38,941 nucleotides of DNA from Oscillospiraceae bacterium (lineage in GTDB: Bacteria > Bacillota > Clostridia > Oscillospirales > Oscillospiraceae): NCBI GenBank assembly GCA_902775355.1, contig CACYLY010000013.1, positions 1 through 38,941 of the forward strand. The letters are read 5' to 3'. This document shows, piece after piece, positions 16,493 through 38,821 of this stretch. Positions within the stretch are counted from its first letter, which is position 1. Each line of letters starts with the position of its first letter. The translations under genes were made by a program, and so were the position numbers. The notes below the pieces were generated by a model. That model was given only the letters and a program-made list of their open reading frames with translations. It made no database searches and was not told the DNA's origin.

Positions 16493-16521
16493 TTGACATA
16501 TACCCCTATGGGGTATATAAT
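16493..16521 (+). promoter_or_regulatory. Promoter of the copper operon
   Basis: TTGACA (16493-16498) and TATAAT (16516-16521) are 17 bp apart. This strong promoter is expected to be repressed by CsoR through the palindrome in its spacer. Confidence 0.88.
16498..16518. promoter_or_regulatory. CsoR operator inside the promoter spacer
   Basis: ATATACCCC (16498-16506) and GGGGTATAT (16510-16518) are a perfect inverted repeat with a TAT centre. TACCCC-GGGGTA is the known pattern for CsoR-type copper operators. It fills the space between -35 and -10, so apo-CsoR would block RNA polymerase and copper-bound CsoR would release it. Confidence 0.88.
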
Positions 16522-16543
16522 GACGACGAAAGGATGTGATCCC

Positions 16544-16873: not shown

Positions 16874-16880
16874 GGGCCGC

Positions 16881-17300
16881 GTCCGTCATTCGCCGAGCGG
16901 GGGACGAGGACGCCGGATGCCAACTTCCCCGTGCGTGGGGAAGGCAAAGTCGGGCGCTTCGTGAAGCGCCCCTACGGCGGAGGACGGAGCGTCGGCGGGG
17001 GACGAGGGACCCCTTCCGTCATCCGGCTTGCGTGAGACGCCGGACGACACCTCCCCCGGCGGGGGAGGCGAGACTTCCGTCATCCGGCTCGCGTGAGACG
17101 AGGACGCCGGATGCTAACTTCCCCGTGGGTGGGGAAGGCAAAGTCGGGCGCTTCGTGAAGCGCCCCTACGGCGGAGGGCGGGGCGTCGGCGGGGGACGAG
17201 GAACCCCTTCCGTCATCCGGCTTGCGTGAGACGGCGGATGACACCTCCCCCGGCGGGGGAGGCGAGACTTCCGTCATCCGGCTTGCGTGAGACGCCGGAT
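16881..17300. repeat. 194-bp tandem duplication in the csoR-copA gap
   Basis: The unit beginning GACGAGGACGCCGGATGC at 16903 recurs at 17097, and AAAGTCGGGCGCTTC recurs with the same 194-bp offset. About two full units plus a partial third (near 17265-17305) fit. Each unit contains the hairpin GGGCGCTTCGTGAAGCGCCC (16952-16971 and 17146-17165) followed by CCTACGGCGG, identical to the copy at 7424, and a CTCCCCCGGCGGGGGAG hairpin. The two copies differ by few bases, so the duplication is recent or maintained. No gene is supported here, and no promoter for copA is obvious. Confidence 0.85.
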
Positions 17301-17350
17301 GACACGCCCAAGACCCCCGGAAGGGGAGGCTTTAGCAGAAAGGATCGGAA

Positions 17351-20286: not shown

Positions 20287-20315
20287 TTGACTGCTCAAAA
20301 AGAATACAGTATACT
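20287..20315 (+). promoter_or_regulatory. Promoter of the 12-gene locus
   Basis: TTGACT (20287-20292) and TATACT (20310-20315) are 17 bp apart in an AT-rich patch. Repeated TTGTATAAT words follow at 20321-20338 and could be additional -10 elements. The leader of about 160 nt is long. Confidence 0.75.
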
Positions 20316-20384
20316 TCACTTTGTATAATTTGTATAATAATGTCCTATTCTCATCTTGGCCGGCTTCGCCTTTCGTCGCGTCTC

Positions 20385-20408
20385 TCGGGAAAAGATCGTT
20401 TTTCCCGA
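20385..20408 (+). promoter_or_regulatory. Hairpin in the long leader of the 12-gene locus
   Basis: TCGGGAAAA (20385-20393) and TTTTCCCGA (20400-20408) pair perfectly around a 6-nt loop in the 5' leader, 75 nt before the first start codon. It could be an attenuator or an mRNA stabiliser. The T-run is inside the stem, so it is not a classical terminator. Confidence 0.4.
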
Positions 20409-20483
20409 AATCTGCGGAACTTAGTCGATTCATACGCGTCTGAAATCGTGTCTGATAAAATTTCTGAATAGGAGGAACGAACC

Positions 20484-21761
20484 ATGCCACTTTTTTCTTC
20501 CGGCAATGACGGAAACAGAAGCTTTTCGTCCGTCATCAAATTCGAGGGCAGTCCTGACGATCTGGTTTTCAAAGCGAGGGAAGAGGATTTCAACACTACC
20601 ACCCGCCTGATCGTTGAAGAAACACATAATGCCCTGCTGGTGGTTAACGGCGCAGCCGCAGACCTCTTCGGACCCGGCGATCACACCCTTTCCGTACCCA
20701 ACATCCCCATCCTGCGCAAGTTCATCAGCATCCCCACCAGCGGCGTCAGTCCTTTCACCTGTAAGGTCTTCTATATCAATATGGTCCACCAGATGGATAT
20801 GCTCTGGGGCACCCAGGGAGCCATCACGCTGGAGGACCCGCTTTATGATATCTTCCTGCACGTGATGCTCCGCGGCAGCATTGCCCTGAGCGTGGCCGAT
20901 CCCCGAAGGATGCTGATCAAGCTGGTGGGCTTCCGGGACCGCTGCCAGGCCAAGGACCTGTTGGAAAAATTCCGCGGCATCATCTCCATGCACGTGAAAA
21001 GCTGCATCTCCCAGATCATGATCAATGGCAAGCTCAGCTATTTTATCATGAACGCCAACCTGATGGAGGTCAGCGAGGTCGTTAAGGAGCGGCTGGACGC
21101 GATCTTTGACGATTACGGCATGAAGGTGGAGTTTTTCAACATTGAGAGCATCGAGGTGCCCGAAAAGGATTACGCTGAGGTTTCCGCTGCCAAGAACCGC
21201 CGCACCGGTCGTATTATCGAGGGCTACACCTGGCAGGAAGAGCGCCAGATGATCATTGCCGAAAAGTTCGCCTCCAACGAGGGCACTGTGGGCGCCATGG
21301 GAGGCATGGTTGGCGGCGCCATGGGAGGTCTCATGATGGGCGGCACCATCAGTGAGATCGCCCGCAACGCAATGAGCCAGGATCGGCTGCCCACGCAGAA
21401 ACCGCCGAAGGACGCCAGCGGCAGCAATCCTCCCATGGGCAGCAACGCCGCCGGTACGGGCGGCAACAGCTCCGTGCGGGATATCCTGAACGGCAAAAAA
21501 ACCGAAACTCCGGCTGCGTCCGGCTTCAGCGGCCCGGCTCCCTTTGACCTGGGACCCGCGGAAGCGCCTGCCGCTCCGGTGACTCCGAATGCGCCGGCGG
21601 AGGGCAGCAAATTCTGCCCGGACTGCGGCGTTCCCGTGACTCCCAAGGCGAAGTTTTGCCCGGAGTGCGGACACCGCTTTGCCCGCACCTGCCCCAACTG
21701 CGGCCGGCCCATTGAGGGCGATCCGAAGTTCTGCTTCGAGTGCGGCACCAAACTGCGCTGA
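20484..21761 (+). CDS. SPFH-domain protein with C-terminal zinc ribbons
   Basis: The 425-aa protein starts at ATG 20484 behind AGGAGG. Residues about 20-260 look like the SPFH (stomatin/prohibitin/flotillin) domain protein group that includes Bacillus YdjI, often annotated as virion core-like protein. A Gly/Met-rich stretch follows (about 270-295, MGGMVGGAMGGLMMGG), then a Pro/Gly linker, then four CxxC pairs (C378/C381, C392/C395, C403/C406, C417/C420) forming two zinc ribbons. In Bacillus, YdjI is encoded with a PspA homologue and membrane proteins and is tied to membrane stress. Here it is the first gene of the unknown locus, suggesting that it recruits the other products to membrane patches. 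That role is inference. Confidence 0.75.
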   Translation: MPLFSSGNDGNRSFSSVIKFEGSPDDLVFKAREEDFNTTTRLIVEETHNALLVVNGAAADLFGPGDHTLSVPNIPILRKFISIPTSGVSPFTCKVFYINMVHQMDMLWGTQGAITLEDPLYDIFLHVMLRGSIALSVADPRRMLIKLVGFRDRCQAKDLLEKFRGIISMHVKSCISQIMINGKLSYFIMNANLMEVSEVVKERLDAIFDDYGMKVEFFNIESIEVPEKDYAEVSAAKNRRTGRIIEGYTWQEERQMIIAEKFASNEGTVGAMGGMVGGAMGGLMMGGTISEIARNAMSQDRLPTQKPPKDASGSNPPMGSNAAGTGGNSSVRDILNGKKTETPAASGFSGPAPFDLGPAEAPAAPVTPNAPAEGSKFCPDCGVPVTPKAKFCPECGHRFARTCPNCGRPIEGDPKFCFECGTKLR

Positions 21762-21813
21762 ACCCCGGCCGATCATTTGAGCATTCTAAGAGAATGGAAA
21801 GGAATGGATAGAA

Positions 21814-22506
21814 ATGAATAAACGGAAAGCAGCGGGCCTGTCCCTGGCCGTCGTCGGCATTATCTTCGTGATATACAATCTGTTTGTGTTCCTGCTCATC
21901 AAGCCCCAGACCAGTGCGTTCTGGATCAGTTATGTCTTTATGCTGATCGCTTTCGGCTCCCAGCTCTTTTCCCTCTCCCAGGCCGGTAAGAGCCTGGATG
22001 TGGAGACGGTGTTTTTTGGCATCCCCCTGGTCTCTTTTTCGGTGTTCTACTTCTTCGCGGAGCTGTTTGCCAGTACCGTGTTCATGCTGTTCCAGAATCA
22101 CGTGGGCGTCATCGCGCCGGTGCTGGTCCAGATCCTGCTCCTGGCTGTTTTCGCGATCTTTGCGATCCTTTCCATTGCCGGGCGGGACGCCACCAAAGCT
22201 GTCAACGATGACTACAAGTCCAAGAGGAACGGCATCAAGTCCCTGAGCGTGGATGTGGAGCTGCTGGCCAAAGACATCAGCGACCCGACGCTGAAGAAGG
22301 CTCTCTCCCGGCTGGCGGAGAATATCCGCTTCTCCGACCCCATGACCAACGACGTGGTCGCGGACGTGGACAACCGGATCCGCCAGGGAATCGACGATCT
22401 GCGCGAAGCCTGCGAGGAAGGCCGGACGGAAGAGGCTGCCGCGCTCTGCGCCAGAGTGGACCGTATGCTTGTGGAGCGCAATCGGAAGCTCTTTGTCACA
22501 AAATAA
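21814..22506 (+). CDS. Four-helix membrane protein of unknown function
   Basis: The 230-aa protein has four hydrophobic helices in the first half (about 7-29, 36-56, 66-90 and 98-121). A soluble, charged, mainly helical C-terminal half of about 105 residues follows, with many Asp and Arg residues. The start at ATG 21814 follows AAAGGA, 52 nt after the SPFH gene. I do not recognise the family. The topology suggests a membrane anchor with a cytoplasmic domain. Its place directly after the SPFH protein, and before a zinc-ribbon protein, suggests it ties the complex to the membrane. Confidence 0.7.
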   Translation: MNKRKAAGLSLAVVGIIFVIYNLFVFLLIKPQTSAFWISYVFMLIAFGSQLFSLSQAGKSLDVETVFFGIPLVSFSVFYFFAELFASTVFMLFQNHVGVIAPVLVQILLLAVFAIFAILSIAGRDATKAVNDDYKSKRNGIKSLSVDVELLAKDISDPTLKKALSRLAENIRFSDPMTNDVVADVDNRIRQGIDDLREACEEGRTEEAAALCARVDRMLVERNRKLFVTK

Positions 22507-22532
22507 AGACGTAAAAGCGGAAAGGAAGCATC

Positions 22533-24524
22533 ATGGCAGTATCCTATTCATCCAGAAAATGCGATTCCTGCGGCGGGAGTATGGATTATAACCGCTCGGA
22601 GAAAGTCTGGGTCTGCAGATATTGCGGTCAGAAGGTCGTCAGAGAAGAGAAGTACGACGGACTGTTCACCATCAAAAACGTGGCGCGGCAGGTGATCCTG
22701 AACGTGGCCTACCGGCGGATGGACGGAGCGAGAAGCGACCTGGCCGAGTGCGAAAAGATCGACTCCTCCTATGTGGGAACCATCATTGCCCGCATCTGCT
22801 ATAATTTTGCCGCCCTCATCACCCCTCAGGGCTGCCGGGAGACGGAGCGCAAGGCTACCTTACAGCGCCTGAAGTCCGATTATGAACGGCTCGCCTCCCG
22901 GGACGACGGGATCGCGGAGGACGAGGAGACCTTCTATGAATTCATCGGAGAGTCGGACGACAGCGATGACGCCAACGCCGTGCTGCTGATGACCTTCGAT
23001 ACCCTGGGAGACAAGAAGAGGGGCGAGCTGGCCCTCCAGTCCCTGGACGCGGGAAAAATCTATTCCCGGGAGATCAACAAGGATCTTCTGCCCTGGTGCC
23101 TGAAAAACGACAAGATGGACCTGGCCAAACAGGTAGTGGCCAACAGGGGGAATATTGAGCCCCATACCGCCATGCTCACGGTGCTGAGCAAGGCGACGGA
23201 CGGAGACAACAAGCGGGAGATGATCCGCCTGCTGCTGGAGCAGAAGGCGCTGACCCAGGAGGACCGCACCACGGTGAAGAATTACCTGTGCGGAGATGAC
23301 AGCTGCCAGACCAAGGCGACGCTGATCTCCGCGGGCTTTTCCCTGGGCTTCCTGCCGCCGATCAACACCGTGATCGAGAGAGTCCTGGCGCCGGCCGACC
23401 CGGATTCCCTGCGGCTGGCCCTTCAGGGCGTGTGCAGCCCCAGCATCCACGACTCCGATCTCTATGAGCTGATGGGCTACGCCCTGAACGAGGACGTGGA
23501 GAAATCCAAGATCATTCTTGATGCGATCAGCGCATCCGGGCGCTATGTGGCCCTCAACTCCAAGATGATCACCCAGGTCTTCCGCAGCCCCAGGCGCAGT
23601 TCGGAGGAGCGGATGCAGCTCTGGCAGTCCATGAAGGATTTCAAGGCCGATCCCAGAGCCCTCAGCGTCGCCTTCGCGGATGTGCTGTGTACCTGCTCGG
23701 ACAGTCCCGAGGTTCGGGAGGGGCTGCTGCGGGAGCTGCTGCACTCTGTTCCCGCCGTATCCGCCTCCACGCTGGAAAAATACCTGCTGGAATGCACCTA
23801 CGACGGGGAGAATAAAGCTGCGATCGTCAAAATGCTGCTGGAGCTTCCGGATGCCCGCCCCGGCCAGTATGGGGACCTGCTGGGCAAGTATCTGGCCAGA
23901 TCGCCCGACTCGCCCCAAGCCCGCGCCGCTGTGGTGGATGTGATGATCGGCGCGGGGATGCCTATTTCAGGCAGCGCCGTCACCGACCTGATCTGCTCCG
24001 ACAGCATGCCCACGGACAAAAAGATGGAAATGCTGCGCAGGTTGGAAGACAACGGCAGCCGCCCCCGGTCGGACGCCTTGAGCGTCTATCTGGAGCGCTG
24101 CGGCGGCAACTGTGACTACACCCTTATCAATTATCTGTACCGCGTCAGCACCGGCATCAGCCCCGAAGCCATTCGAAATTTCGTGCTGGGCGGCTCCAGC
24201 GCCTCCACCGGAAAGGTGGCCGCAGCCCAGCGCCTGGCGGACAAGCTGTCCCTGCCCTTCGGCAGCAGTTCCTGCACCGTCACCTTCTGCGGCGAGCACA
24301 TCCGCTGCAGCTTGCTGCAGGCCTATTGCATCCTGGCCCCGGATCCCTATGACGTGGGCACTCAGATGGTTCGGGCCATGAGCAGCGTTTCCCGCATGGG
24401 ACAGAACATCGAAGTAAACGGGAGCAGCGTCCGGTTCAAAAAGTATTTGAAGGACAGAAGAGGACAGCTGTCCCCCGTCGCGGATCGACTGTGCGACGAG
24501 CAGAAGCTCTTCTCCCTCTTCTGA
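22533..24524 (+). CDS. Zinc-ribbon protein with long helical-repeat body
   Basis: The 663-aa protein opens with one zinc ribbon (C10, C13, C28, C31; CDSCGG and CRYCGQ). The rest, about 60-640, is predicted mostly helical with repeated Leu-rich helix pairs, such as segments around RGNIEPHTAMLTVLSKA and LRELLHSVPAVSASTLEK, like an alpha-solenoid or HEAT-type scaffold. No catalytic motif is visible and no transmembrane helix is seen. It begins 26 nt after the previous stop behind AAAGGA. A scaffold or adaptor is the natural guess from this shape. I do not recognise the family. Confidence 0.7.
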   Translation: MAVSYSSRKCDSCGGSMDYNRSEKVWVCRYCGQKVVREEKYDGLFTIKNVARQVILNVAYRRMDGARSDLAECEKIDSSYVGTIIARICYNFAALITPQGCRETERKATLQRLKSDYERLASRDDGIAEDEETFYEFIGESDDSDDANAVLLMTFDTLGDKKRGELALQSLDAGKIYSREINKDLLPWCLKNDKMDLAKQVVANRGNIEPHTAMLTVLSKATDGDNKREMIRLLLEQKALTQEDRTTVKNYLCGDDSCQTKATLISAGFSLGFLPPINTVIERVLAPADPDSLRLALQGVCSPSIHDSDLYELMGYALNEDVEKSKIILDAISASGRYVALNSKMITQVFRSPRRSSEERMQLWQSMKDFKADPRALSVAFADVLCTCSDSPEVREGLLRELLHSVPAVSASTLEKYLLECTYDGENKAAIVKMLLELPDARPGQYGDLLGKYLARSPDSPQARAAVVDVMIGAGMPISGSAVTDLICSDSMPTDKKMEMLRRLEDNGSRPRSDALSVYLERCGGNCDYTLINYLYRVSTGISPEAIRNFVLGGSSASTGKVAAAQRLADKLSLPFGSSSCTVTFCGEHIRCSLLQAYCILAPDPYDVGTQMVRAMSSVSRMGQNIEVNGSSVRFKKYLKDRRGQLSPVADRLCDEQKLFSLF

Positions 24525-24710
24525 GGAGGAGCTCCGAAGTTCCCGCATTCCCCGCGGCGACGTCTGCCCCGGTTCGACGCGAAGAGGCAGATCCCCCGTC
24601 GGCTCCGCGCCCTTTGCCGGAGCCGGCGGCAGCCGTCTGCTCTCGCCGGCTTTCCGCGCCGGCGGAACGGAATGGAAAACCCATGACAAATTCTATGGAG
24701 GTGAGCCGAA
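24525..24710 (+). other. 186-bp gap in the operon with a hairpin
   Basis: This is the widest gap between genes of the locus. It is GC-rich and has an 8-bp hairpin (24600-24607 with 24618-24625). No gene with a ribosome binding site is seen and no promoter is evident. It may modulate expression of the downstream ATPase part. Confidence 0.4.
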
Positions 24711-27416
24711 ATGGCGCAATGTATCAGACTGCGGGACGGTCGTGTGGCCGGTCTGGCTGTTTGCGAAGTGACGGCGATCCCACAGTATGAACTGCTGAAT
24801 AAAGAGGTGGATCGGGCCTGCCATATCGACCAGGTGCTTTTTGCCCAGATCGTTTCCGGCTTCTACCGTCGGTCCACCGCCAACGGCTCTGCCATGGAGA
24901 TCCTGTGGCAGAGCTTTGCCGTGCAGGATCAGACCTACGCGGCGGAGGTCAGGCAGTATATCCTGCTGCGTCATCTCGGGTCCAGTGAGGAAGCGGTGAA
25001 CAGCGCCCTGGAGGATCAGATCCAGGAGCTGTGCGCGGAGCTGCGGGGCAAGGACTTCTCCATCCAGGTCCTGGAGGGGGAGGAGATGAACGGCTTTTCC
25101 TCCCGGCTGGAGCGCTGCGACACCAGTGCCGTATACGCCGTGGCCAAGCGGGAGCGCTACGCCATGCAGATGCTCTCCAACCAGATCCTGTACTATAATG
25201 ATGTTCTGGCGCCCTCCTGCGACCGGAACATCGCCGAGCTTACCAACGCGCTGACCCGCAATCCCAACTGCTGCGTTTCCCTGCAGCTGATCCCGACCGA
25301 GTATACCCAGGAGGAGATCTTCGGCATCGAGCAGGGAAGGACCTTCATCAACTACTACATGAGCAATATGCGTTTTCGCCAGGGCATCCAGACGGACACC
25401 AACACCCGGGCGATCGCCAATTCATTTGAATACCTGATCGCTTCGGAAAAGGAGCCTTTGTTCTATTTCCTGTTCCTGGTCTATGGCGGGGCGGGCAGCG
25501 CCCTTGGCCTTGCCAACAAGCTGATCGAAGCCGCCCAGGAGGAGGGCCAGATCAGCGGCAGCGCCCTGGAACTGCAGGACCTCTCCGGCCTTGGCATGTC
25601 TCCCGGAAAGAACCTGGCTCTCTCGCCCTGGCTCAACAGCAATATCCTGGTTTTTCAGCAGAGAAGCTGGGACTTCTGGGGTCTGGACTATGCTCCGAAG
25701 CATTTTATTCGCCTGCGCTATCTGGCCACGGGCAGAGAACTCAGCGGTGCCTTCAAGCTGCCCGTTGACGACGGACATACCATCGGCCTGGAGAGCAACA
25801 AAATCTCCACCCAACGGGAAAAGCTGAACCGCAACATCATCAGCGAGGGGAACTTCAAACTGGGCCGGATCATGAACGCAAGCCGCAACGCCTCGGGAGA
25901 GGAGGCCCACGCCGGCGTGCCGCTGAACGACTTTACCAAGCACGGCCTGGTGGTAGGAATGCCCGGCTCCGGCAAGACGAACTTTTCACTGGGACTGCTT
26001 CTGGAGTTCTGGAAGGGCTTCGGGATCCCCTTTCTCGCCATTGAGCCGACCAAGAGCGAGTATCGCTCTCTGCTGGACGCCATCGACGAGCTGCAGGTCT
26101 TTACCCCCGGCAAAAACAACGTCTCCCCCTTCATCATCAACCCCTTTATCCCCCCTCGGGGCGTCACGGTGGAGACCTTTACCCCCAGCTTGATGAGTGC
26201 GTTCAAGGCGGCCTTTTCCATGCCGGACCCCTTGCCGGATATCTTTCTGGCCGCGGTGAACGAGTGCTACAACCTGTACGGCTGGCGGCTCACCAGCACG
26301 GTGGAAGACCCGAATGTGAAGGTTTTCGGCCTGTACGAGTTCATCCGCGTTTTTCGCCGGAAGATCCAGAACATGGACTACAAGGGCGACGTGAAGTCCA
26401 ACATGGAGAGCGCCGGCGTGGTTCGGCTGGTTACCCTGATCGAGCAAAACCCGAACATTTACGATACCATCCACTCCATCCCGCTGGAGGATCTGCTGCG
26501 CAGACCTACGGTGATCGAGCTCAACGCCATCAACAACAAGGAACAGAAGTCCCTGATCATGGCGCTGCTGCTGATCCAGATCTGCGTATATACCAAGAAC
26601 AACGTGGCGGGGGACGGCAAGCTGAAAAACATCCTTCTGATCGACGAGGCCCACGTTCTGCTGGCCGGTCAGAGCAGCTCGGGAGGCGAGGGCAGCGCAG
26701 ATTCCCACGGCAGCACCGTGGAGGCGCTGAGCGACATGATCGCCGAGATCCGCTCCTACGGTACGGGTATCGTCATCGCCGACCAGTCGCCCACCGCGGT
26801 GGGCCGCAACATCGTCGCCAACACCAACGTGAAGATCGTCTTCAAGCTGGTGGAGAAAGAAAACCGGGACGCCATCAGTACGGCGACCAATATGGACGAG
26901 GCGGACTACGAACGCATGGGACGTCTCGGCCTGGGCGAGGCCATGCTCCACTATGGCAGGGTCTACGCGCCACTGCATATCAAAACATACAACATCCAGG
27001 AAAAGGCGAAGATCCGCCCGGTGATTTCGGACGAGGAGGTCGCCCGACGCTGCCACTACTGGGACGCTCACAGCGAGTTGCTGATCCCCCATCGGGAATG
27101 CAGCCGCAACTGCGCCTGCCATGACGGCTGCGATCTGGAGCTGCGCTCCAACGCGGATTTCATTGCCGCCCGCATCATCAATGAGAAGCTGTACGACCTG
27201 GCGGACAAAAGGGCTTTTGTCCAGTTCCTTGTCGTGCTGGACCCGATTATCAAACGGGAGATCCAGAATCTGCCAGGCGCGGAATACTCTCTCCGCCTGG
27301 CCAACTGCGTGAAAATCAAATTCCTCCGCAAGGCGATGCTGGTGAAGACCTTCGGTATTACCAACGCGGAGTACGATCAGATATTGAATCATCCCCGGTT
27401 TATCAAATCGAAATAA
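24711..27416 (+). CDS. HerA/FtsK-like P-loop ATPase with Cys cluster
   Basis: The 901-aa protein has an N-terminal region of about 400 residues without a known motif. An ATPase domain follows: Walker A GMPGSGKTN (416-424) and then FLAIEPTKSEYR, a signature of HerA/DUF87-type ATPases, Walker B ILLIDEAH (641-648) and a later GTGIVIADQSP segment typical of the HerA/FtsK/VirB4 group. These proteins are ring ATPases that move DNA or protein. Near the C-terminus is a CX3CXCX3C cluster (C797, C801, C803, C807) that could bind zinc or an iron-sulfur centre. There is no transmembrane helix. The ATG at 24711 has GGAGGTGA upstream. It is the likely motor of the locus. Whether it moves DNA, protein or neither is open. 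Confidence 0.82.
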   Translation: MAQCIRLRDGRVAGLAVCEVTAIPQYELLNKEVDRACHIDQVLFAQIVSGFYRRSTANGSAMEILWQSFAVQDQTYAAEVRQYILLRHLGSSEEAVNSALEDQIQELCAELRGKDFSIQVLEGEEMNGFSSRLERCDTSAVYAVAKRERYAMQMLSNQILYYNDVLAPSCDRNIAELTNALTRNPNCCVSLQLIPTEYTQEEIFGIEQGRTFINYYMSNMRFRQGIQTDTNTRAIANSFEYLIASEKEPLFYFLFLVYGGAGSALGLANKLIEAAQEEGQISGSALELQDLSGLGMSPGKNLALSPWLNSNILVFQQRSWDFWGLDYAPKHFIRLRYLATGRELSGAFKLPVDDGHTIGLESNKISTQREKLNRNIISEGNFKLGRIMNASRNASGEEAHAGVPLNDFTKHGLVVGMPGSGKTNFSLGLLLEFWKGFGIPFLAIEPTKSEYRSLLDAIDELQVFTPGKNNVSPFIINPFIPPRGVTVETFTPSLMSAFKAAFSMPDPLPDIFLAAVNECYNLYGWRLTSTVEDPNVKVFGLYEFIRVFRRKIQNMDYKGDVKSNMESAGVVRLVTLIEQNPNIYDTIHSIPLEDLLRRPTVIELNAINNKEQKSLIMALLLIQICVYTKNNVAGDGKLKNILLIDEAHVLLAGQSSSGGEGSADSHGSTVEALSDMIAEIRSYGTGIVIADQSPTAVGRNIVANTNVKIVFKLVEKENRDAISTATNMDEADYERMGRLGLGEAMLHYGRVYAPLHIKTYNIQEKAKIRPVISDEEVARRCHYWDAHSELLIPHRECSRNCACHDGCDLELRSNADFIAARIINEKLYDLADKRAFVQFLVVLDPIIKREIQNLPGAEYSLRLANCVKIKFLRKAMLVKTFGITNAEYDQILNHPRFIKSK

Positions 27417-27434
27417 GAGACGGAGCTGACGGAT

Positions 27435-31270: not shown

Positions 31271-31280
31271 GGCGCAGCCA

Positions 31281-31347
31281 ATACCGCTCCCCATCGAGAA
31301 TCCCGGCCCGGCGGATGAGACAGGCTGCGTGTGGAAAGGAGCGGTAT
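31281..31347 (+). promoter_or_regulatory. Inverted repeat in the gap before the first paralogue
   Basis: ATACCGCTCC (31281-31290) and GGAGCGGTAT (31338-31347) are perfect complements separated by 47 nt, in the 105-bp gap after the unknown 346-aa gene. It could form a long-range hairpin hiding an upstream AAGGAG, or act in mRNA processing. Confidence 0.45.
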
Positions 31348-31375
31348 CATACCAAGATGGAAAGGAAGTGCAGCA

Positions 31376-33097
31376 ATGGCGGATAATGATTACTATGAAG
31401 AGCAACAACTGATCAACCGGATCAACAGTCTGCGCATGGAAAACGCGGCTTTGCAGGCGGAGCTGGAGAGTGCCCTGAGCGATCTGGCGATCATCGCAGA
31501 CAATCTGGACGGCATGTCCCAGACGGTTTTGCGGGATTTGACCGCGCTGCGGGACCATACCGGCACTGTGGATGAAAACACGGCCGTGGTAGAGCGGGCA
31601 CTGAAAGAACTGTCCACCCAATACGCTACTTTCAAAAACCTCTCCTCGGCTACCAAAAATGTTACCCAGGCCACAGAGGAATACAACACCCGCTTCGCCT
31701 ATTTCCACAAACTGCGGAGAATCGCCCTGGGCTATGTGATCGGCCTGGACAACGCCATCATTTCCAACGAGACCCTCCGCAAGGAGGTGGAAAAAGTCTA
31801 CCTCCAGAACACGGATTACTGGCTGGCCTACGCCATCTCCGCCGTGATGCTCTGGGCTAACGACGAGAAGGACGCCTCCCTGCGGGCCCTCAAACGGAGC
31901 ATCTCCATGGATCCCTGCAAGACGGACGTGTTCTTCCTGCTTATCAATCTGCGTTTTGAACGCTTCGGTCCGGCGAAAAACTGGTATCTGGACTATCTGG
32001 AAAAGGTTGACCTGAGCGCCCTGGGCACGGAGTATCAGTACCTGCTGCAGGCCTACCTGTCAGGCTTGTTCGGCTATGATCCGGAGTTTGAGCGCCTGGT
32101 AAAAGACGACTTCCGCAAATCCGTTGAACGCATCGACGCCATGACCGTGGATTTCCGGGACAAGTTCACCGAACGTGCCAGGCGCTATGCCGAGACCTAT
32201 CTCCACCGCACGGAGCAGGAATTCCCCTCCCTCAAGGAGTGCAGCCCGGACTACGAGAAGCTGATCACCCTGCTCTCCAAGGCCGAGTGCAACGGGCTGT
32301 TTGCCCGGCAGTACGCGGAGCTGGCCCGAAAGGAGGAGGAGATCAGCGAGGATCCCGCCCAGCGCGTGGAGAATGTTCTGTACGACCTGACCAATTCCTA
32401 CGACGACGAGGAATGGAAGGTCATCAAGCGCCAGAAGGAGAACGAGGCCATCATCGAAGCCCAGGGGGACTTGGTGGCGGCCAAAGAAAAGTACAAACTC
32501 CAGTATGAGAACATGGACAAGAAGCGCCCGCTGGATCAACTGATGATGGACTGGGCCTTCTCCGAAGACCCGACGATCACGAATCTGATCATCAAGCGCT
32601 TCACCATCTCCCTGATGCACGAGCCCATTTCCCGCGGATTTCAACAGTTCGCGGAAAAGGTCCGGCTGGCGGAGCCGCGGGAGATCCCGATCGAGATCGA
32701 CGGCTTCCGGGTCACCTGCAGTCAGGACAACCCGAACGAGTGCGGAATGCAGCTGGCCCAGTGCTACTCCAAGAACCGCCTGAAATATGCGTTTCAGGAT
32801 AAATACATCAAGATTTTCAGCATCGTCTGTCTGGCAAGCATCCTGCTTTTGATTATCACCGCCTTTGCATTCAGCCCCATTGCGTTGAGCATTGGCGTGA
32901 TGGGCTTCATCGTCGGGGGCTTCGTCCTCTGGCGCAGGTATGTGGAGCTCGGCAAGATCCTGGATGAGAAGAGAAGATTGGGCCTGCTGAAGCTCTCGCA
33001 CTGCCTGGATGAGTTTGAGACCTGGAAGCAGCTGTTCCAAGCCGCCAACGAAAGCGCCGGAGAAATCGCCGAGGCTTTCAGCCTGTTTAATGCATAA
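31376..33097 (+). CDS. Paralogue 1: coiled-coil, helical core, two-TM protein
   Basis: The 573-aa protein starts at ATG 31376 after AAAGGAAG. An upstream in-frame ATG is not preferred. Residues about 8-65 are heptad-like, likely a coiled coil. The core (about 110-220) has the block YWLAYAISAVMLWANDE and FFLLINLRFERFGPAKNWY, shared with the proteins at 33111 and 36961 and TPR-like in pattern. Two hydrophobic helices (about 478-522) lie near the C-terminus, followed by about 50 helical residues. It probably anchors in the membrane by this hairpin, with both ends in the cytoplasm. I do not recognise the family. Confidence 0.72.
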   Translation: MADNDYYEEQQLINRINSLRMENAALQAELESALSDLAIIADNLDGMSQTVLRDLTALRDHTGTVDENTAVVERALKELSTQYATFKNLSSATKNVTQATEEYNTRFAYFHKLRRIALGYVIGLDNAIISNETLRKEVEKVYLQNTDYWLAYAISAVMLWANDEKDASLRALKRSISMDPCKTDVFFLLINLRFERFGPAKNWYLDYLEKVDLSALGTEYQYLLQAYLSGLFGYDPEFERLVKDDFRKSVERIDAMTVDFRDKFTERARRYAETYLHRTEQEFPSLKECSPDYEKLITLLSKAECNGLFARQYAELARKEEEISEDPAQRVENVLYDLTNSYDDEEWKVIKRQKENEAIIEAQGDLVAAKEKYKLQYENMDKKRPLDQLMMDWAFSEDPTITNLIIKRFTISLMHEPISRGFQQFAEKVRLAEPREIPIEIDGFRVTCSQDNPNECGMQLAQCYSKNRLKYAFQDKYIKIFSIVCLASILLLIITAFAFSPIALSIGVMGFIVGGFVLWRRYVELGKILDEKRRLGLLKLSHCLDEFETWKQLFQAANESAGEIAEAFSLFNA

Positions 33098-33110
33098 GGG
33101 GGGATAAATC

Positions 33111-34709
33111 ATGTCTGGAGCGAATAACGCATTGTACCGTCTGAACGAGTCGATCAATTCCTTTCAGCAGAGACTGAACGCGCCGGTCGACAAAGTTTAT
33201 CAGTCCAGCGTCAACATCAATGAGACCACGACCCGCATCCTGGGCAAGATCGAGGATTTCCAGCAGAACCTGGTCCAGGGGGAGCAGACTCAACTGGCAC
33301 ATGAAAACATCATCCGCATCGACCAGCTCCTGAAGGAGCGCTTCGGCGATTATGAGGCCATCCGAAAGACGGTGATGGGCATTGTCCGGGACTTTGACGT
33401 GAACCTGGTCCGCAACAGCACCATTACCGATCTGAGCGAAGAACTCTGGATCAGCAGTTCCAGATACTGGCTGTCTTACGCGCTGATCGCCATTACCGCC
33501 TGGGTGAATGACTACCCGGAGGTGGCGCGCAACGCGCTGTCCGAATCCGGCCGCCGGGACGCCATTAAGACCACGCTGTTCTTCTGCCTGACCAATCTGC
33601 GCTTTGAGCGCATGGATGCGGCGAAAAAATGGTTCTGCGAATACATCAAGATCCTGGATCCCAAGATGCTGCAGCAGGAGACCGCGGTGCTGCTGCAGGC
33701 TTTCCTGAACGGCATCTTCGGCAAGGACAAGGAGCTGGAGCACGAGGTCCTCGACCTGATCGAAGAGTGGATGCGGATCCTTAACGAGGACGCGGAAGCC
33801 TGCCAGGCCCTGGTGGAGTCCTATGTGGTCTACATCAAGAACATGAGGAGCCCCGTGAAGTTCAGCTACTCCTCCATTTTGCAGTACTGCCGGAACAAGG
33901 ACCAGGTCGCACGCAGCTATGAGGAAGTGGCCAAGTACGACCAGCTGTTGGAGTTCGTCCGATCCCTGGATGTGGAACTTGAGGAGCAGAACGACGAAAA
34001 CTACCGCGCAAGAGTGGACGCGGTGCTGATGAACCTTATCACCCGCTATGACGAGGAAGAGCTGTCGCTGAAGGACCAGCAGGCGTATTACCAGTACATC
34101 GTTGAAAATCAGGGTGTGATCCAGAAGGCCGAGGCCCAGTATCAGCAGCGTCAGGAGCTGCAGAACTCTTCTTTCAACATCGGCAAGCAAATGATGCGCT
34201 GGGCCCTGTTCGACGCCGATGGGACGGATATCCAGGTCCGCAAATTCGGTTTCCAGAACACCAAAGACTTTTTCACCGAGGGTGTGAACCGCTGGGACAT
34301 CCAGCTGCAGCAGGATCGTCCGCTGAACTTCGAGCTGGCGATCGACGACTGGACCGGCGTCAGCAACGGGACCGACTTCCAGGAGCAGCGGGAGAGCATG
34401 CACCGCTTCTTCGACAGCAACAAGTTCCATTATATGTACATCAATACCTGGAACATCGCCCTGGTTCTGGCCGTCATTCTTTCCGTAGGCCTGGCTTTCC
34501 TGACCCCCTACGCCCTGGTGGTGACGGCGCTGGCCGCAGGCTTCCTGGCGTTCCGCGTTTTGAAAGCCATGAAGGAATATCCCCAGCGCGTGGAGAGAGC
34601 CAAGGCCGCTCTCGACGCCGTGCTTGCGGAAATAGCCGAATACAGACTGTTCTTCGACGACAAGCGTCAGCTCAAGGATGAGCTGATCAGCGCCGCCTCA
34701 TTCCTGTAA
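33111..34709 (+). CDS. Paralogue 2: helical core, two-TM protein
   Basis: The 532-aa protein begins 13 nt after paralogue 1, behind GGGGGGA. The shared block is YWLSYALIAITAWVNDY (core start about residue 120) and LTNLRFERMDAAKKWF. The N-terminal helix region is shorter than in paralogue 1. Two hydrophobic helices (about 447-486, NIALVLAVILSVGLAFL and the next segment) precede a helical tail. The shared build, order and spacing with its neighbours point to gene duplication within the locus, with the three proteins likely assembling together. No catalytic motif is visible. Confidence 0.72.
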   Translation: MSGANNALYRLNESINSFQQRLNAPVDKVYQSSVNINETTTRILGKIEDFQQNLVQGEQTQLAHENIIRIDQLLKERFGDYEAIRKTVMGIVRDFDVNLVRNSTITDLSEELWISSSRYWLSYALIAITAWVNDYPEVARNALSESGRRDAIKTTLFFCLTNLRFERMDAAKKWFCEYIKILDPKMLQQETAVLLQAFLNGIFGKDKELEHEVLDLIEEWMRILNEDAEACQALVESYVVYIKNMRSPVKFSYSSILQYCRNKDQVARSYEEVAKYDQLLEFVRSLDVELEEQNDENYRARVDAVLMNLITRYDEEELSLKDQQAYYQYIVENQGVIQKAEAQYQQRQELQNSSFNIGKQMMRWALFDADGTDIQVRKFGFQNTKDFFTEGVNRWDIQLQQDRPLNFELAIDDWTGVSNGTDFQEQRESMHRFFDSNKFHYMYINTWNIALVLAVILSVGLAFLTPYALVVTALAAGFLAFRVLKAMKEYPQRVERAKAALDAVLAEIAEYRLFFDDKRQLKDELISAASFL

Positions 34710-34752
34710 GAAGCCTTTGGATCAGAGATTATAAAAACTGGAGGGTATAAAG

Positions 34753-34932
34753 ATGAACGAGCAGAATTTTTCCATGGACACCGATTTCGAAGCTCTGATG
34801 GAGCAGCGCATGCAGGAGACTTTTATGGACCCGTCCCACACCGGGGAGAGCGCCAGTGACGAGCGCCTGCGGGAAATGAACAAGAAGCTCCCGCAGTGGA
34901 GCCTTGAGCCCCCCTACAGCTTTCTGAAATGA
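34753..34932 (+). CDS. Small acidic protein, 59 aa
   Basis: A short gene starts at ATG 34753 behind GGAGGG (about 34739-34745) and ends at TGA 34930-34932, overlapping the next start codon by 4 bp. The protein begins MNEQNFSMDTDFEALMEQRM and ends with a Pro/aromatic motif LPQWSLEPPYSFLK. It has no membrane helix, signal or Cys. Its good ribosome binding site and tight coupling at the downstream side support it as a real gene. It may be a small adaptor, binding partner or tail peptide for one of the larger proteins. Function unknown. Confidence 0.7.
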   Translation: MNEQNFSMDTDFEALMEQRMQETFMDPSHTGESASDERLREMNKKLPQWSLEPPYSFLK

Positions 34933-35453
34933 CCAAGACGGCGGAAAAGCCGCAGCTGACAGCTCCGCCAGCCAGCTATCAGGAATGGCTGGAGTGTTTT
35001 GAACTCCTGCGCCAGCGCCCCCAGAACGGAGAATTGCTGCGCCTGATGGCCCGGGGAAGCGTTCCCGCGCTGGACGCGCGGCTGCTGGACAGCTTCCTCA
35101 AGCGTCTGGACGACGCGGTACGCGACACGGTCCAGTATCGGATCCAGGAGATGCTGTCCCATCTGGACGAGGCCTTGGCCGAGGCGGATCTGGACGGAGC
35201 GGAGCTCCTGGCCATCCGCTTCTGGAATCGCGCCGGAGACTGCTTCTTTTTTGAACGGCTGGAGGGCCTGCCGCTTCGACAGCGGCTTGAACTCCGGGAG
35301 GGCTATGACAGGCAGTTGACGCGCTTCTGGAGCGATCTGGCCGACACGGTCCTTCGGGACGCGGCAGAATTCGGCAGCAGCGAGCTGGAGGAGCTCGCCC
35401 TCCGGTTCCGAAGCCTGCAAAAAAAATGGGAACACAGGCAGGTGCCCCTATGA
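34929..35453 (+). CDS. Unknown helical protein, 174 aa
   Basis: The ATG at 34929 overlaps the stop of the 59-aa gene, and its own TGA (35451-35453) overlaps the ATG of the AAA+ gene, so three genes are translationally coupled. The protein is strongly helical and rich in Leu, Glu and Arg, with WLECFELLRQRPQNGELL near the start and a C-terminal charged helix. There is no membrane helix or known motif. Its coupling to the Ycf46-like ATPase makes an adaptor or substrate role plausible. Confidence 0.68.
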   Translation: MTKTAEKPQLTAPPASYQEWLECFELLRQRPQNGELLRLMARGSVPALDARLLDSFLKRLDDAVRDTVQYRIQEMLSHLDEALAEADLDGAELLAIRFWNRAGDCFFFERLEGLPLRQRLELREGYDRQLTRFWSDLADTVLRDAAEFGSSELEELALRFRSLQKKWEHRQVPL

Positions 35454-36964
35454 GCAATTACGAACATACCCGTGAGGAAGTAAAAAACTACATCATCGCC
35501 CGGGTGCCGCTCGTGGTGATCGATACCTCGGAGCGAGCGAGGGCGGAAAAGCTGCTGCGCAGCATCGCTGCGGAGCTGTCCATCGACATCTCGTACTATA
35601 CCGACGCCAAGCAGGTAAGAAGCCTGAGCAAGCCCGGCGTATCGGTGAATGTGGACCGGGACCCGCTGCCCTATGTGGCAGGGGAGTTCAGCCACAAGCG
35701 CAGGGCGACCTTTGCCCTGGGGGACTGCCGGAAAACCGGGGAGGACTCTTACTATACCCGGGAACTGCTGAACACGGTCTATCTTGCCAAGGAATCGCTG
35801 GGGACCCTGATCCTCATCACGCCGGACAGCATCTGGCCCCGCCTGGCCCGCTTCGGGATGCTGGTACGGCTGGATCTGCCGGATCTGCAGGAGCGCAAGC
35901 AGCAGATCGCCGCCTTCGTGAAGGATCACAAGTCCCGCTTCCGCATCGAGTGGACCGAGCCGGACATAGAGTACGCCGCGGCGGTGCTCAGCGGCTTCAG
36001 TGAGGTGCAGGTCAACAACATCCTCTCCTCCACCCTTGTGGAGCATGAGGGCCTGCAGCGCAGGGATCTCAGCAACCTGGCCAACCAGAAGAGCCGGCTG
36101 TACGCCGCCGTGCCCAGCATCCATCCCGTGCAGGTCAGCGAGGATCTGACCGTGTCCGGCCTTCGCCGGCTGAAGGAGTGGCTGGAGGACAAGAGGAAGA
36201 TCTTCTTTGCGCCCGAGGAAACTCTGCGCGCCAGGGATCTGGAGCCGCCGCGGGCGATCCTGCTCCTGGGCGTGCCCGGCTGCGGCAAGTCCCTCTCCGC
36301 TAAAATGGTGGCCTCCGTTTGGCGGCTGCCCCTCTTCCGCTTCGACCTGGGCACGGTCTATGACAAGTATGTGGGCGAGAGCGAAAAGAAGATGAACGAC
36401 GCGCTGCAGTTTCTCGATAACGTCTCCCCCTGCGTCGTCTGGGTCGATGAGATCGAAAAGGCCCTGTCCGTCTCCGACGGGGGCAACGACGTGGGCCGGC
36501 GCGTGCTGGGGCAGTTCCTGTTCTGGATGCAGGAATCCCGCAGCCGTGTGTTCCTGGTTGCCACCGCCAACGATATCGCGTCCCTCCCGCCGGAACTCTT
36601 CCGCAAGGGCCGCTTTTCAGAGCTGTTCTTCGTGGATCTGCCGAACCGGAGCGAACGCCGGGAAGTACTCTGCCAGTACTGCGGGAAGGCCCTGCACTGG
36701 ATACCGGAGCCCCGGGAGCTGGACGAACTGGCCGGCATTTGCGAGGGCTTCAGCTACGCCGATATCGAATATGCCGTCAAGGGCCTGGCGGAGCGGCTCC
36801 TCCTGGACCCCGATACCCGGGTGGACGCCGATACGCTGGCAGAATGCTTCGATAAGCAGATCCCCTATTCCAAAACCAACGCCGAGACCTTGCGAGCGCT
36901 TCGCGCCTGGGGCGCAGACCGCGCGATCCATGCGTCCGGCTCACAGGAGGTGCATTCAACGTGA
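35450..36964 (+). CDS. Ycf46-like AAA+ ATPase
   Basis: The 504-aa protein (ATG 35450, coupled to the previous stop; an in-frame ATG at 35426 would overlap the previous gene more) has an N-terminal degenerate AAA-like region (about 1-250) and a full AAA+ domain. Motifs are Walker A GVPGCGKS (274-281), the KYVGESEKKMNDAL segment, Walker B with D333-E334 in VWVDEIEKAL, sensor 1 ATANDI, and the arginine-finger region FRKGRF. This arrangement matches the Ycf46 group of AAA+ proteins of cyanobacteria and plastids, whose role is poorly defined. AAA+ proteins of this class usually remodel or unfold partner proteins. Its stop overlaps the GTG start of paralogue 3. Confidence 0.85.
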   Translation: MSNYEHTREEVKNYIIARVPLVVIDTSERARAEKLLRSIAAELSIDISYYTDAKQVRSLSKPGVSVNVDRDPLPYVAGEFSHKRRATFALGDCRKTGEDSYYTRELLNTVYLAKESLGTLILITPDSIWPRLARFGMLVRLDLPDLQERKQQIAAFVKDHKSRFRIEWTEPDIEYAAAVLSGFSEVQVNNILSSTLVEHEGLQRRDLSNLANQKSRLYAAVPSIHPVQVSEDLTVSGLRRLKEWLEDKRKIFFAPEETLRARDLEPPRAILLLGVPGCGKSLSAKMVASVWRLPLFRFDLGTVYDKYVGESEKKMNDALQFLDNVSPCVVWVDEIEKALSVSDGGNDVGRRVLGQFLFWMQESRSRVFLVATANDIASLPPELFRKGRFSELFFVDLPNRSERREVLCQYCGKALHWIPEPRELDELAGICEGFSYADIEYAVKGLAERLLLDPDTRVDADTLAECFDKQIPYSKTNAETLRALRAWGADRAIHASGSQEVHST

Positions 36965-38661
36965 GTATTGCCTCTCTCCAGGCGGAAGTCAGCCGGCTGG
37001 AATCTATTAACCGCGAGCTGCGTTCGGAACTCTACGAGATCGAGTCTGGAGCCAACCGGGGCTACAATGCGCTGGAGGAATCCAACAGCAAGGCCAGACA
37101 GCGTCTGGACACCAGCTCGCAGATCCTGTTGAACAGCCAGAACGCCGGTCTGGCCGCGATCGAGAAAATGGCGGAGATCGACCGGCTCTATACCCGCTTC
37201 AAGCAGATGGAGCTGGCCAACAAACGCATTCGCGACTGCAACAACAAGAGGTTTTACGATTTTGCCAACTACCGCAGGATCCGCAAGATCGTACAGGGCT
37301 TGATGGATAACCTGGACGTGAACATGGTCAGTGACGCAGTCATATACCGTTCCATCGAGGCCCAGCATCTCAAAACCCCGAACTACTGGCTCACCTGCGC
37401 GCTCATCGCCATCATGGGCTGGAAGAACGACGATAAGGAACTGGCGGAGCGCGCCCTCCAGATCGCGATCAAGCTGGATAAGAAGGACACGGCGGTCTTT
37501 TTCCTGCTGTTCAACCTGCGCATGGGGCGCGACGACGCGGCCCTGAAGTGGTTTTACAGCTATCAGGAATGCCCGCTGAAGGGCTCGGACGAGCGCACCT
37601 TCCTGCTGTTCTTTGCGCTGATGAGCAAGACCATCAACAGCAGCGAGAAGATGAGCGATGAGTCCCGCCGGGAGATGCACGACTTCATCGACAAGGTGGT
37701 GGCCCTCAGCCTAAACCGGGAAGGCTATTCCGAAGAGGAAATGGTCCAGTGCGTGCTGCGCTACATCGACCAGATGGACAGCCGGGAGCACGCTTCCTAC
37801 CCGCTGCTGGAAAAGCACTGCGGCGCCTTTCCCCAGCTGCAGACGGCCCTGTGCAAGGCCAAGGGCAATGTCAGCTTCCTGGAGTTCCTGAAGGAAGTGC
37901 TCCATTTCGAGCAGGTCGAGCGCAACAGCTTCGTGAAGAATTATATCCTGGAGCTGGTGGAGCGGCCAAACGACGAGGAAAAGCAGGTAAGCGAGGACAT
38001 CCGCTACAATGAGCTGATCATCCACTACGAAGGCGATGTGGAGGCGGCCAAAGCCCAGATGGAGGCTAAGCACCAGCACGACGAGGCGGAGCTGAACCTG
38101 ATCCTGGAGATGATCAACTGGATCTACCGGGGCAACAAGGAAGAAGTGGACGCCCAGGGAAGGCTTACCATGTTCTCCTACACCAAGGATCTGCAGCTCA
38201 AAGCCTACGAGCGGCACCTCAACGCCTACCGCAGCGCCATCGGCAAACCCAAGCCGATCCAGATCGGCGATTACGCCACACAGGCGAATTTAAGCGATCC
38301 GGCGGGCGAGGAGAGGAAGATCCGCGGCTTCTATGAGCAGCGCCGGGATCAGCAGCTTGCGGAGATCAAGAATCTGAGCGCCTATATCGCTTTCGCCGTC
38401 GCCCTGGCCGCCGCCGTCGCGGCGCCCTTCCTGCACCTGGCGATGCTGATCATCACGGTGATCGCGGCAGGCGCGGGCGGTTATATCCTGCTGTCCAACA
38501 AGTCCAAGCGCAGCAGGATCAGCGATGCCTGCGAGAACAGTATCCAGGCGTGTACGGAGGTTTTGAACAAATTGATTGCCGAATTCAGGCGATATCTGGA
38601 AGAGATCCAGCATTACGACAGCTATGACGAACAGATCCGGGAAGAATTTGACCAGCTCTGA
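36961..38661 (+). CDS. Paralogue 3: coiled-coil, helical core, two-TM protein
   Basis: The 566-aa protein starts at GTG 36961 behind AGGAGG, overlapping the AAA+ stop (GTGA). It has an N-terminal coiled coil (about 3-75), the shared block YWLTCALIAIMGWKNDD and FFLLFNLRMGRDDAALKWF (about 135-200), and two hydrophobic helices near the C-terminus (about 474-513, AYIAFAVALAAAVAAPFL and the next), followed by a helical tail. It is the third protein with this build and the last gene of the locus. A strong terminator follows. Confidence 0.72.
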   Translation: MSIASLQAEVSRLESINRELRSELYEIESGANRGYNALEESNSKARQRLDTSSQILLNSQNAGLAAIEKMAEIDRLYTRFKQMELANKRIRDCNNKRFYDFANYRRIRKIVQGLMDNLDVNMVSDAVIYRSIEAQHLKTPNYWLTCALIAIMGWKNDDKELAERALQIAIKLDKKDTAVFFLLFNLRMGRDDAALKWFYSYQECPLKGSDERTFLLFFALMSKTINSSEKMSDESRREMHDFIDKVVALSLNREGYSEEEMVQCVLRYIDQMDSREHASYPLLEKHCGAFPQLQTALCKAKGNVSFLEFLKEVLHFEQVERNSFVKNYILELVERPNDEEKQVSEDIRYNELIIHYEGDVEAAKAQMEAKHQHDEAELNLILEMINWIYRGNKEEVDAQGRLTMFSYTKDLQLKAYERHLNAYRSAIGKPKPIQIGDYATQANLSDPAGEERKIRGFYEQRRDQQLAEIKNLSAYIAFAVALAAAVAAPFLHLAMLIITVIAAGAGGYILLSNKSKRSRISDACENSIQACTEVLNKLIAEFRRYLEEIQHYDSYDEQIREEFDQL

Positions 38662-38688
38662 TACGGAGAAGACAGAGAAAAGACCGTA

Positions 38689-38821
38689 GGGGCGGCTGTC
38701 ATGCTGCCCCGCGCGGGAAAGGGAAAAGGCAAAAGAATAGTGAGGCGAACTTGCAACGATGTGCGATTCGCCTCACTTTTTTCACGATACGCTTGACCTG
38801 CCGGGCGGTTGCCAGCCGCCC
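38689..38821. repeat. Hairpin repeats after the locus
   Basis: Two elements of the same short hairpin family as at 7156-7498 lie here: 38689-38710 (GGGGCGGC with GCTGCCCC) and 38803-38821 (GGGCGGTT with GCCGCCC). They flank the terminator at 38739. Further right (about 38867-38912) there are tandem ACGAACT/ACAAACT words. The region to the window end has no gene. Confidence 0.65.
38739..38783 (+). terminator. Rho-independent terminator of the 12-gene locus
   Basis: A perfect 11-bp stem (38739-38749 with 38767-38777) is followed by TTTTT. It lies 78 nt after the last gene and marks the end of the transcription unit that begins at 20287. Confidence 0.9.

Follow-up and report, generated by a model that had tools for sequence, protein, structure and literature searches.

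HerA-class motors are known mainly from DNA handling and antiphage complexes, and in the Bacillota the type VII secretion system (T7SS) sets a pump ATPase beside polymorphic toxins. That ATPase belongs to the FtsK/HerA class (PMC3482391). Polymorphic toxin systems combine a constant N-terminal part, a swappable C-terminal toxin and a downstream immunity gene; a peptidase domain can lie within the toxin, and a RelA/SpoT toxin domain and relatives of XopAD have already been described (PMC3482391). Exported alarmone synthetases and toxSAS (SaEAS/8VX3, Tas1/Apk1; PMC12691689, PMC11782079) form a second group for comparison. The structure 8VX3 was deposited as an exported alarmone synthetase, SYNTH domains carry several kinds of export signal, and the synthetases are exported by several pathways (PMC12691689); a small alarmone hydrolase antitoxin sits beside FaRel (PMC11782079). 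Here we analyzed a stretch of 38,941 nucleotides from an Oscillospiraceae bacterium (GCA_902775355.1, CACYLY010000013.1), referred to below as the window, which is contig 13 of a 92-contig, 2.86-Mb genome (62% G+C) and holds a locus of 12 genes, g1 to g12 (Table 1). We consider it probable that this locus encodes a polymorphic toxin system with a HerA/SPFH deployment machine of its own. Gene linkage, an acidic leader recognized by composition, toxin swapping, the matching of toxins with immunity proteins and an intact P-loop and EAH motif in the ATPase are read from the sequence itself.

The locus resembles each of several described systems in part. With polymorphic toxin systems it shares the general architecture, but the candidate toxin g5 has no match to a known trafficking-mode domain, and the window adds an acidic repeat leader, its own HerA ATPase and SPFH/4-transmembrane (4-TM) genes. 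The exported alarmone synthetases and toxSAS likewise have a synthetase domain with conserved residues, and in one relative (L057) the partner has a hydrolase domain; they differ in that the g5 synthetase comes behind a C39 domain and an acidic repeat, and in having other deployment genes. As in the T7SS, an FtsK-HerA superfamily ATPase stands beside polymorphic toxins. However, in the Pfam run on 10 of the 12 window proteins (g1-g8, g10 and g11, with g9 and g12 left out), the set to which all Pfam statements on the window refer, no WXG/LXG substrate or EssC-type ATPase was found, and FtsK_SpoIIIE fell below the cut-off on g4. GAP1-N2/DO-GTPase systems (PMC7159879) come close through one relative (L022), in which such genes are coupled to a HerA relative and the same toxin/g6 pair; the 10 window proteins have no GAP1 or DO-GTPase match, and in PMC7159879, HerA and SPFH appear in the reference list only. 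Finally, the YdjFGHI/PspA envelope-stress complex (PMC8581546) also joins an SPFH protein to integral membrane partners, but the window has HerA and a toxin, and none of the 10 proteins matched PspA.

The core cassette is the HerA ATPase gene g4, the acidic-leader effector gene g5, often an immunity-like gene such as g6, the SPFH gene g1 and the 4-TM gene g2. As a single query, g4 gave no confirmed relative in a scan of genome contigs; a six-sequence g4 alignment, run against species genomes, gave 80 loci, the best 80 of at least 579 confirmed (relatives are named here by locus, L, or genome, G). A previous sequence-only reading of the window had raised the question of whether the gene set recurs in other genomes, and it does. 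All positions are found in L059, another Oscillospiraceae locus, in the order g1-g2-g3-g4-effector-small open reading frame (ORF)-g7-g8-g9-g10-g11-g12, with a different effector and the small ORF replacing g5-g6; L062 retains g1-g8 as far as the contig end, and L064 retains g1-g9 and g12, with no match to g10 or g11. Same-strand runs are common in bacteria, so unrelated genes could in principle lie together by chance, but this explanation is hardly credible, being contradicted by gene order that recurs in other genera. A binning artefact is also unlikely, because named strains carry relatives (Ruminococcus albus AR67, Faecalicatena contorta ET55, Modestobacter lapidis DSM 100206 and Fretibacterium fastidiosum). 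In a quick tree built from 60 HerA proteins, which was rooted at its midpoint and has long branches, the window falls in a group of 10 rows (nine Bacillota and the window itself), apart from the other 50, which come from Bacillota, Bacteroidota, Actinomycetota, Verrucomicrobiota and Planctomycetota and, as single rows, from three more phyla.

To describe linkage, we used gene hidden Markov models (HMMs) that were seeded with the window proteins and rebuilt on the same loci, and which therefore favour near relatives. Among 61 loci (L059-L119), 31 hold at least 4 kb on each side of HerA; SPFH was present in all 31 and 4TM in 27, and g3-like genes and 2-TM genes were present in 7 and 3, respectively. 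We consequently rejected the idea that HerA marks the full set of 12 genes. Among HerA loci that are more distant, 16 in number, SPFH was found in three and 4TM in none. The ORF that follows HerA is typically acidic. Because length was the criterion for calling ORFs, some of the starts are incorrect, and the controls certainly include ORFs that are not genes; test ORFs could be of any length, and control ORFs had at least 100 aa on either strand. A plus-strand ORF lies right after HerA in 59 of 63 loci (L059-L121; L064, L067, L100 and L120 lack one and were excluded). It reached an acidity score of at least 12 in 50 of these 59 and of at least 20 in 39; among the 625 other ORFs in those loci, 45 and 12 did so, respectively. 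Nine of those 12 control ORFs lie just downstream of HerA (by eye) and are therefore probably part of the system. In five of the nine loci that fail the test (L066, L077, L080, L090 and L098), an acidic ORF comes a little later (by eye).

Effector g5 ends in the peptidase and RelA/SpoT-like domains that the sequence-only reading had named. The candidate C39 residues C496, H617 and D639 are in place, as are R787, K789, D812 and E873 of the synthetase, which we take to be catalytic and which are invariant in three aligned sequences. A profile of these three sequences matched SaSAS 8vx3 (E 1.7e-18) and Tas1 6ox6 (5.9e-8) in the PDB, as expected of a SYNTH domain of the exported alarmone synthetases and toxSAS; toxic alarmone or tRNA pyrophosphorylation would be its predicted activity. 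The domain also matched NCBIfam XopAD (4.2e-25, 87 bits, where the cut-off of 2000 is set for a 2133-position model). Pfam alone detected neither g5 domain; a homologue of the C39-like domain in L112 matches PF13529. The partner genes in L062 and L064 suggest that the C39 domain would be a toxin and not a processing peptidase. No match to the synthetase domain was found in the viral contigs searched. The YM..HNYG..DYAEYSQDPEW motif is confined to effectors in the 141 loci searched and was found neither in plasmids nor in 149 other genomes of the family. The synthetase type itself is already known, because PMC12691689 and PMC3482391 describe such domains.

Effector ends differ between relatives, in line with the variable C-terminus that the sequence-only reading had envisaged. 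Among 20 effectors scanned, eight have a C-terminal toxin or peptidase family at or above the Pfam cut-off, of five kinds: papain fold toxin 1 in L059 (2.8e-10), L076 and L084; TNT in L082 and L107; WHH with colicin-DNase in L075; C39 in L112; and DUF6782 with SprT-like metallopeptidases in L070. A shared leader by composition (50 of 59 loci) and exchanged ends (8 of 20 effectors) give the constant N-terminus and interchangeable C-terminus of polymorphic toxins, and g6 would supply the cognate downstream immunity for the window.

The nature of g6 had been missed in the sequence-only reading. Its residues 1-89 and 5-68 match the partners of the stand-alone synthetase toxins L057 (1.8e-13) and L058 (6.1e-11), and its residues 210-344 and 203-345 match the partners of effectors that end after the C39 domain, L064 (6.3e-23) and L062 (1.7e-13). 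Because each part matches partners of one toxin type, g6 looks like two immunity proteins fused into one, opposite a fusion of two toxins. The L057 partner also has, further on, an HD hydrolase domain whose motifs resemble those of RelA/SpoT (HD_4 in Pfam, 7.6e-7, above cut-off); this fits the neutralization of an alarmone-type product. The pairing was also assessed in a hand-picked set of 22 entries, 21 of them with a partner; two come from one locus, and L057 and L058 are not core cassettes. In this set, all 22 immunity-immunity links join entries with linked toxin ends (15 in the HExxH group, three in the C39 group including the window, one in another C39 pair and three among synthetases). 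The immunity family of the HExxH group is present in 8 of 34 genomes searched, which are the eight with such an effector locus; the only further copy, found in a Treponema genome, belongs to a second SPFH-4TM-HerA locus.

The deployment genes agree in large part with their earlier description. The SPFH and zinc-ribbon assignment of g1 is borne out by Pfam (Band_7_1 2.4e-31, DZR 2.1e-11); by a hydropathy rule, used for all counts of TM-like segments, g1 has none, and nothing in the PDB matched it better than E 0.014. For g2, described earlier as 4-TM, the rule finds three hydrophobic segments, and the fourth is visible by eye only. The HerA-like nature of g4 stands on a HerA_C match exactly at the cut-off, with DUF87 below it. 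Across 30 aligned proteins, the window included, the P-loop, EAH and R681 of g4 are invariant. HerA chains in the PDB were matched by its ATPase part only and not by its N-terminal domain. Pfam gave no family above cut-off for g2, g3, g5-g8 and g10.

In the mechanism we propose, g5 would be the toxin, built of an acidic leader, a long PEE(I/V) linker, the C39-like peptidase and the RelA/SpoT-type synthetase. The synthetase would pyrophosphorylate nucleotides (or tRNA) in the target, and g6 would neutralize both g5 domains in the producer. The HerA-family ATPase g4 would assemble into a ring that holds the toxin by its acidic leader and threads it at a site in the membrane; the SPFH protein g1 and the membrane protein g2 would build this site. 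The remaining proteins (g3, g7-g10, g12 and the Cdc48-like g11) would be an accessory module that assembles, remodels or resets the complex. We infer ring formation, leader recognition, threading and the membrane-assembly step. Export of the toxin to other cells, suggested by the toxin types, their swapping and the cognate immunity, is in our judgment evenly balanced. More tentatively, and somewhat short of even, the cassette may be a delivery machine of several phyla: a HerA ring under an SPFH/4-TM scaffold would recognize the acidic leader and bring interchangeable toxins to other cells. The window would then hold an enlarged version, in which toxin and antidote are both double and a Cdc48-like remodelling module is added. 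The system may act in competition or in defence.

Several observations weigh against an exported polymorphic toxin. Twelve of the 20 effectors have no Pfam family at the cut-off, and L078, L088, L092, L093, L104, L105 and L108, among others, carry acidic proteins without a recognizable toxin end. In many relatives, some of them in Bacteroidota, the acidic protein lacks a recognizable toxin end or partner; it would be either an unrecognized toxin or a protein with another job. Where SPFH lies downstream of HerA, which is the case in 34 loci, a separate small non-acidic ORF follows the effector in just 12 to 14 (by eye), and G560 has a g6-like gene without a toxin. In the pairing set, 15 of the 22 immunity links fall in the HExxH group, and 15 weaker toxin links (6e-19 to 2e-3) have no immunity link; one of these is an overlap of two window pieces, four involve the partnerless L115, and 10 are real exceptions. 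Among distant HerA loci with a downstream ORF, 4 of 14 reach an acidity score of 12 and none reaches 20; the four count on this side. Orphan immunity genes are common in kin competition, and none was found in the 34 genomes for the single family searched, that of the HExxH group. Neither Pfam nor NCBIfam shows a known export or trafficking domain in g5, and the hydropathy rule finds no hydrophobic segment in it (a signal-peptide program was not run).

The last two points, the lack of orphans and of a visible export signal, also favour an intracellular conflict or abortive-infection system, in which a toxin held by g6 at a membrane complex would be freed in its own cell. In such a system, an SPFH/4-TM/2-TM assembly would sense phage entry or envelope damage, and HerA or g11 would separate the toxin from its immunity protein. 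We regard this as rather unlikely, although it has several points in its favour. The Bacillus subtilis SPFH protein YdjI is needed, with two integral proteins, for the membrane localization of PspA (PMC8581546). Distant HerA relatives stand beside dynamin-like genes (L016 and L019, by Pfam) or beside GAP1-N2 and DO-GTPase2 genes (L022), and most GAP1-N2/DO-GTPase-type systems are read as acting inside the cell (PMC7159879). Near SPFH genes, L052 has a TIR protein and L050 an adenosine-deaminase protein. However, exported polymorphic toxins are marked by C-terminal toxins that recombine, by an N-terminal part that stays constant and by cognate immunity genes (PMC3482391), and PADLOC, run on 10 of the 12 proteins, found HerA and AAA models without a system partner at a convincing E-value. 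Its best HerA-model match for g4 was mad8 (7e-17) and its best AAA match for g11 was IetA (5.5e-28); among these 10 proteins there was no HerA antiphage partner (nuclease, Sir2 or other), a single SIR2 match on g7 having E 0.017, and no IetS protease partner of IetA.

The 12 genes are contiguous and recur together, but the single 12-gene system of the sequence-only reading is modular, with the core cassette alone in most relatives. G143 lacks g4-g6 but possesses g1-g3 and g7-g12. The protein at the g4 position of G560 corresponds to g4 residues 1-353 alone; a PIEPEL repeat is fused to this part, and the g6-like gene comes next. These two genomes led us to reject g4-g6 as an invariant part of the operon. 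AAA, g10 and 2-TM genes occur without a HerA match in the examined stretches of G875 (L047) and G835 (L049). These four arrangements show that three parts recombine: HerA-effector-immunity, SPFH-4TM, and g3 with g7-g12, the last being a separable accessory module. The same arrangements, together with SPFH genes without an annotated HerA in L143 and L144, would suit an operon that serves envelope stress or membrane remodelling in general and has received a toxin-immunity cassette by insertion. This is quite improbable in our view, since HerA, the acidic effector, SPFH and 4TM stay linked across phyla without the other genes. The N-terminal domain of the HerA protein is seen without the ATPase in L055 (5548-8235), in an 895-aa protein with a long PIEPEL repeat.

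The operon is rare. In a phylum sample, with no more than two candidates scored per genome, not one of 397 other genomes matched a 30-row g4 profile at 1e-100. With g4 as a single protein at 1e-20, matches came from 3 of 149 other genomes of the family, and one of them was close to full-length. The 2-TM family was found in 3 of 199 other family genomes and, by profile, in 5 of 340 other genomes of a class sample. Among plasmids, g4 matched 40 records at 1e-20, one of them, on a Priestia plasmid, with more than 80% coverage. On the Priestia megaterium plasmid (L140), a HerA relative covering 86% of g4 is followed by a 1135-aa acidic repeat protein; no SPFH is annotated within 15 kb on either side, where annotation is incomplete and the SPFH HMM was not run. 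A g1 search of plasmids gave two records, neither with an annotated HerA in the stretch examined, and a g4 search of phages gave two records matching the ATPase part only.

Table 1. Positions of the 12 genes, the parts of g5 and the transcription signals in the window.
Feature	Position	Strand	Basis or remark
Sigma-70-like promoter site TTGACT-17-TATACT	20287..20315	+	consensus match only
g1, SPFH domain and C-terminal double zinc ribbon, core gene	20484..21761	+	Pfam, hydropathy, HMM
g2, 4-TM-type membrane protein, core gene	21814..22506	+	hydropathy, HMM
g3, zinc ribbon and helical protein	22533..24524	+	accessory module
g4, HerA-family ATPase, 350-aa N-terminal domain, C-terminal Cys cluster	24711..27416	+	
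g5, effector with two toxin-like domains, 932 aa	27435..30233	+	
g5 acidic Ser/Asp/Glu-rich leader, residues 1-44	27435..27566	+	composition; similar leaders in relatives
g5 PEE(I/V) repeat, 12-bp unit x 56.5	27564..28241	+	
g5 YM..HNYG..DYAEYSQDPEW motif, two copies	28281..28526	+	
g5 C39-like papain-fold domain, residues 452-680	28788..29474	+	C496, H617, D639
g5 RelA/SpoT-type synthetase domain, residues 727-930	29613..30224	+	
g6, two-part immunity-like protein, 346 aa	30230..31270	+	
g7, 2-TM helical paralogue	31376..33097	+	longer GTG start at 31331 possible
g8, 2-TM helical paralogue	33111..34709	+	
g9, 59-aa protein	34753..34932	+	C-terminal end LPQWSLEPPYSFLK
g10, small accessory-module protein	34929..35453	+	
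g11, AAA+ ATPase	35450..36964	+	internal ATG start 35450; Pfam, PDB profile
g12, 2-TM helical paralogue	36961..38661	+	
Intrinsic terminator, hairpin then T run	38739..38783	+	folding vs shuffles

The layout described in the sequence-only reading largely stands. The 12 ORFs are contiguous on one strand (20484-38661), with four 4-bp overlaps (g5/g6, g9/g10, g10/g11 with the g11 start taken as 35450, and g11/g12) and otherwise gaps of 13 to 186 bp, counting g7 from 31376. At the end, the terminator hairpin (38739-38777) and T run are well supported, its stretch folding at -28.7 kcal/mol (z -4.65; none of 200 shuffles equal). The promoter called strong is present as a site with 10 of 12 consensus matches, but it is weak alone, a scan having given 7 sites against 4.7 expected. 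Genes g1-g12 may be read as one transcript. In 2-kb steps, the 12-gene stretch has 56 to 62.5% G+C and the upstream flank 63 to 67%, a pattern that acquired DNA might show.

Within the accessory module, the three paralogous 2-TM proteins proposed earlier were found again as g7, g8 and g12. The other two have 22 and 25% identity to g8, and each of the three has two TM-like segments near its C-terminus; a profile of the family matched one 54-aa chain in the PDB (E 0.022). For g11, Pfam gave AAA (1.4e-27), and the best PDB matches were NVL and the Cdc48/VCP class. A short C-terminal motif, LPxWxxxPP, was seen by eye in g9, L049 (2838-3134) and L052 (17375-18244), with an FPxW form in L050 (13289-13465); its bearers are g9 and zinc-ribbon or small proteins adjoining related 2-TM genes.

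Other genes were noted in the surroundings. In the window, genes for a CsoR-like repressor and for a copper-type P-ATPase that has heavy-metal domains lie just upstream of the operon (16500-19879), a FeoA/FeoB-like gene lies on the minus strand (2385-4736), and the protein at 14754-16376 combines an N-terminal kinase-like part with a TM segment and an end that resembles a C-type lectin (all by eye). L052 likewise has a zinc-ribbon/TM/C-type-lectin-like protein (18276-18983, by eye) in the neighbourhood of SPFH/4TM/2TM genes. TPR and TIR-like domains occur in zinc-ribbon proteins beside SPFH or HerA genes in L052 (6398-8218; Pfam TIR_2 1e-8) and L068 (8906-10777; by eye). An 847-aa protein in L050 (13474-16017; Pfam A_deaminase 4.8e-15) adjoins SPFH, zinc-ribbon and 2-TM genes and recalls adenosine-deaminase defence effectors. 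In L016, L019 and L024, dynamin-like GTPase genes (by eye in L024) lie upstream of distant HerA relatives, and nuclease-like toxin and immunity-like genes lie downstream (by eye); these loci are possibly a parallel system with other membrane partners.

Polymorphic toxins and their RelA/SpoT domain are already known, and the new part looks like an undescribed deployment apparatus. Among the open-licence PMC papers listed by full-text searches, no title or abstract joins HerA, SPFH and polymorphic toxins, and a description elsewhere is possible. The roles of bacterial SPFH proteins are poorly understood. If our reading is correct, HerA-class motors would also drive a toxin-handling apparatus together with SPFH proteins, and polymorphic toxins would gain a trafficking mode in gut Bacillota, Bacteroidota and other phyla.

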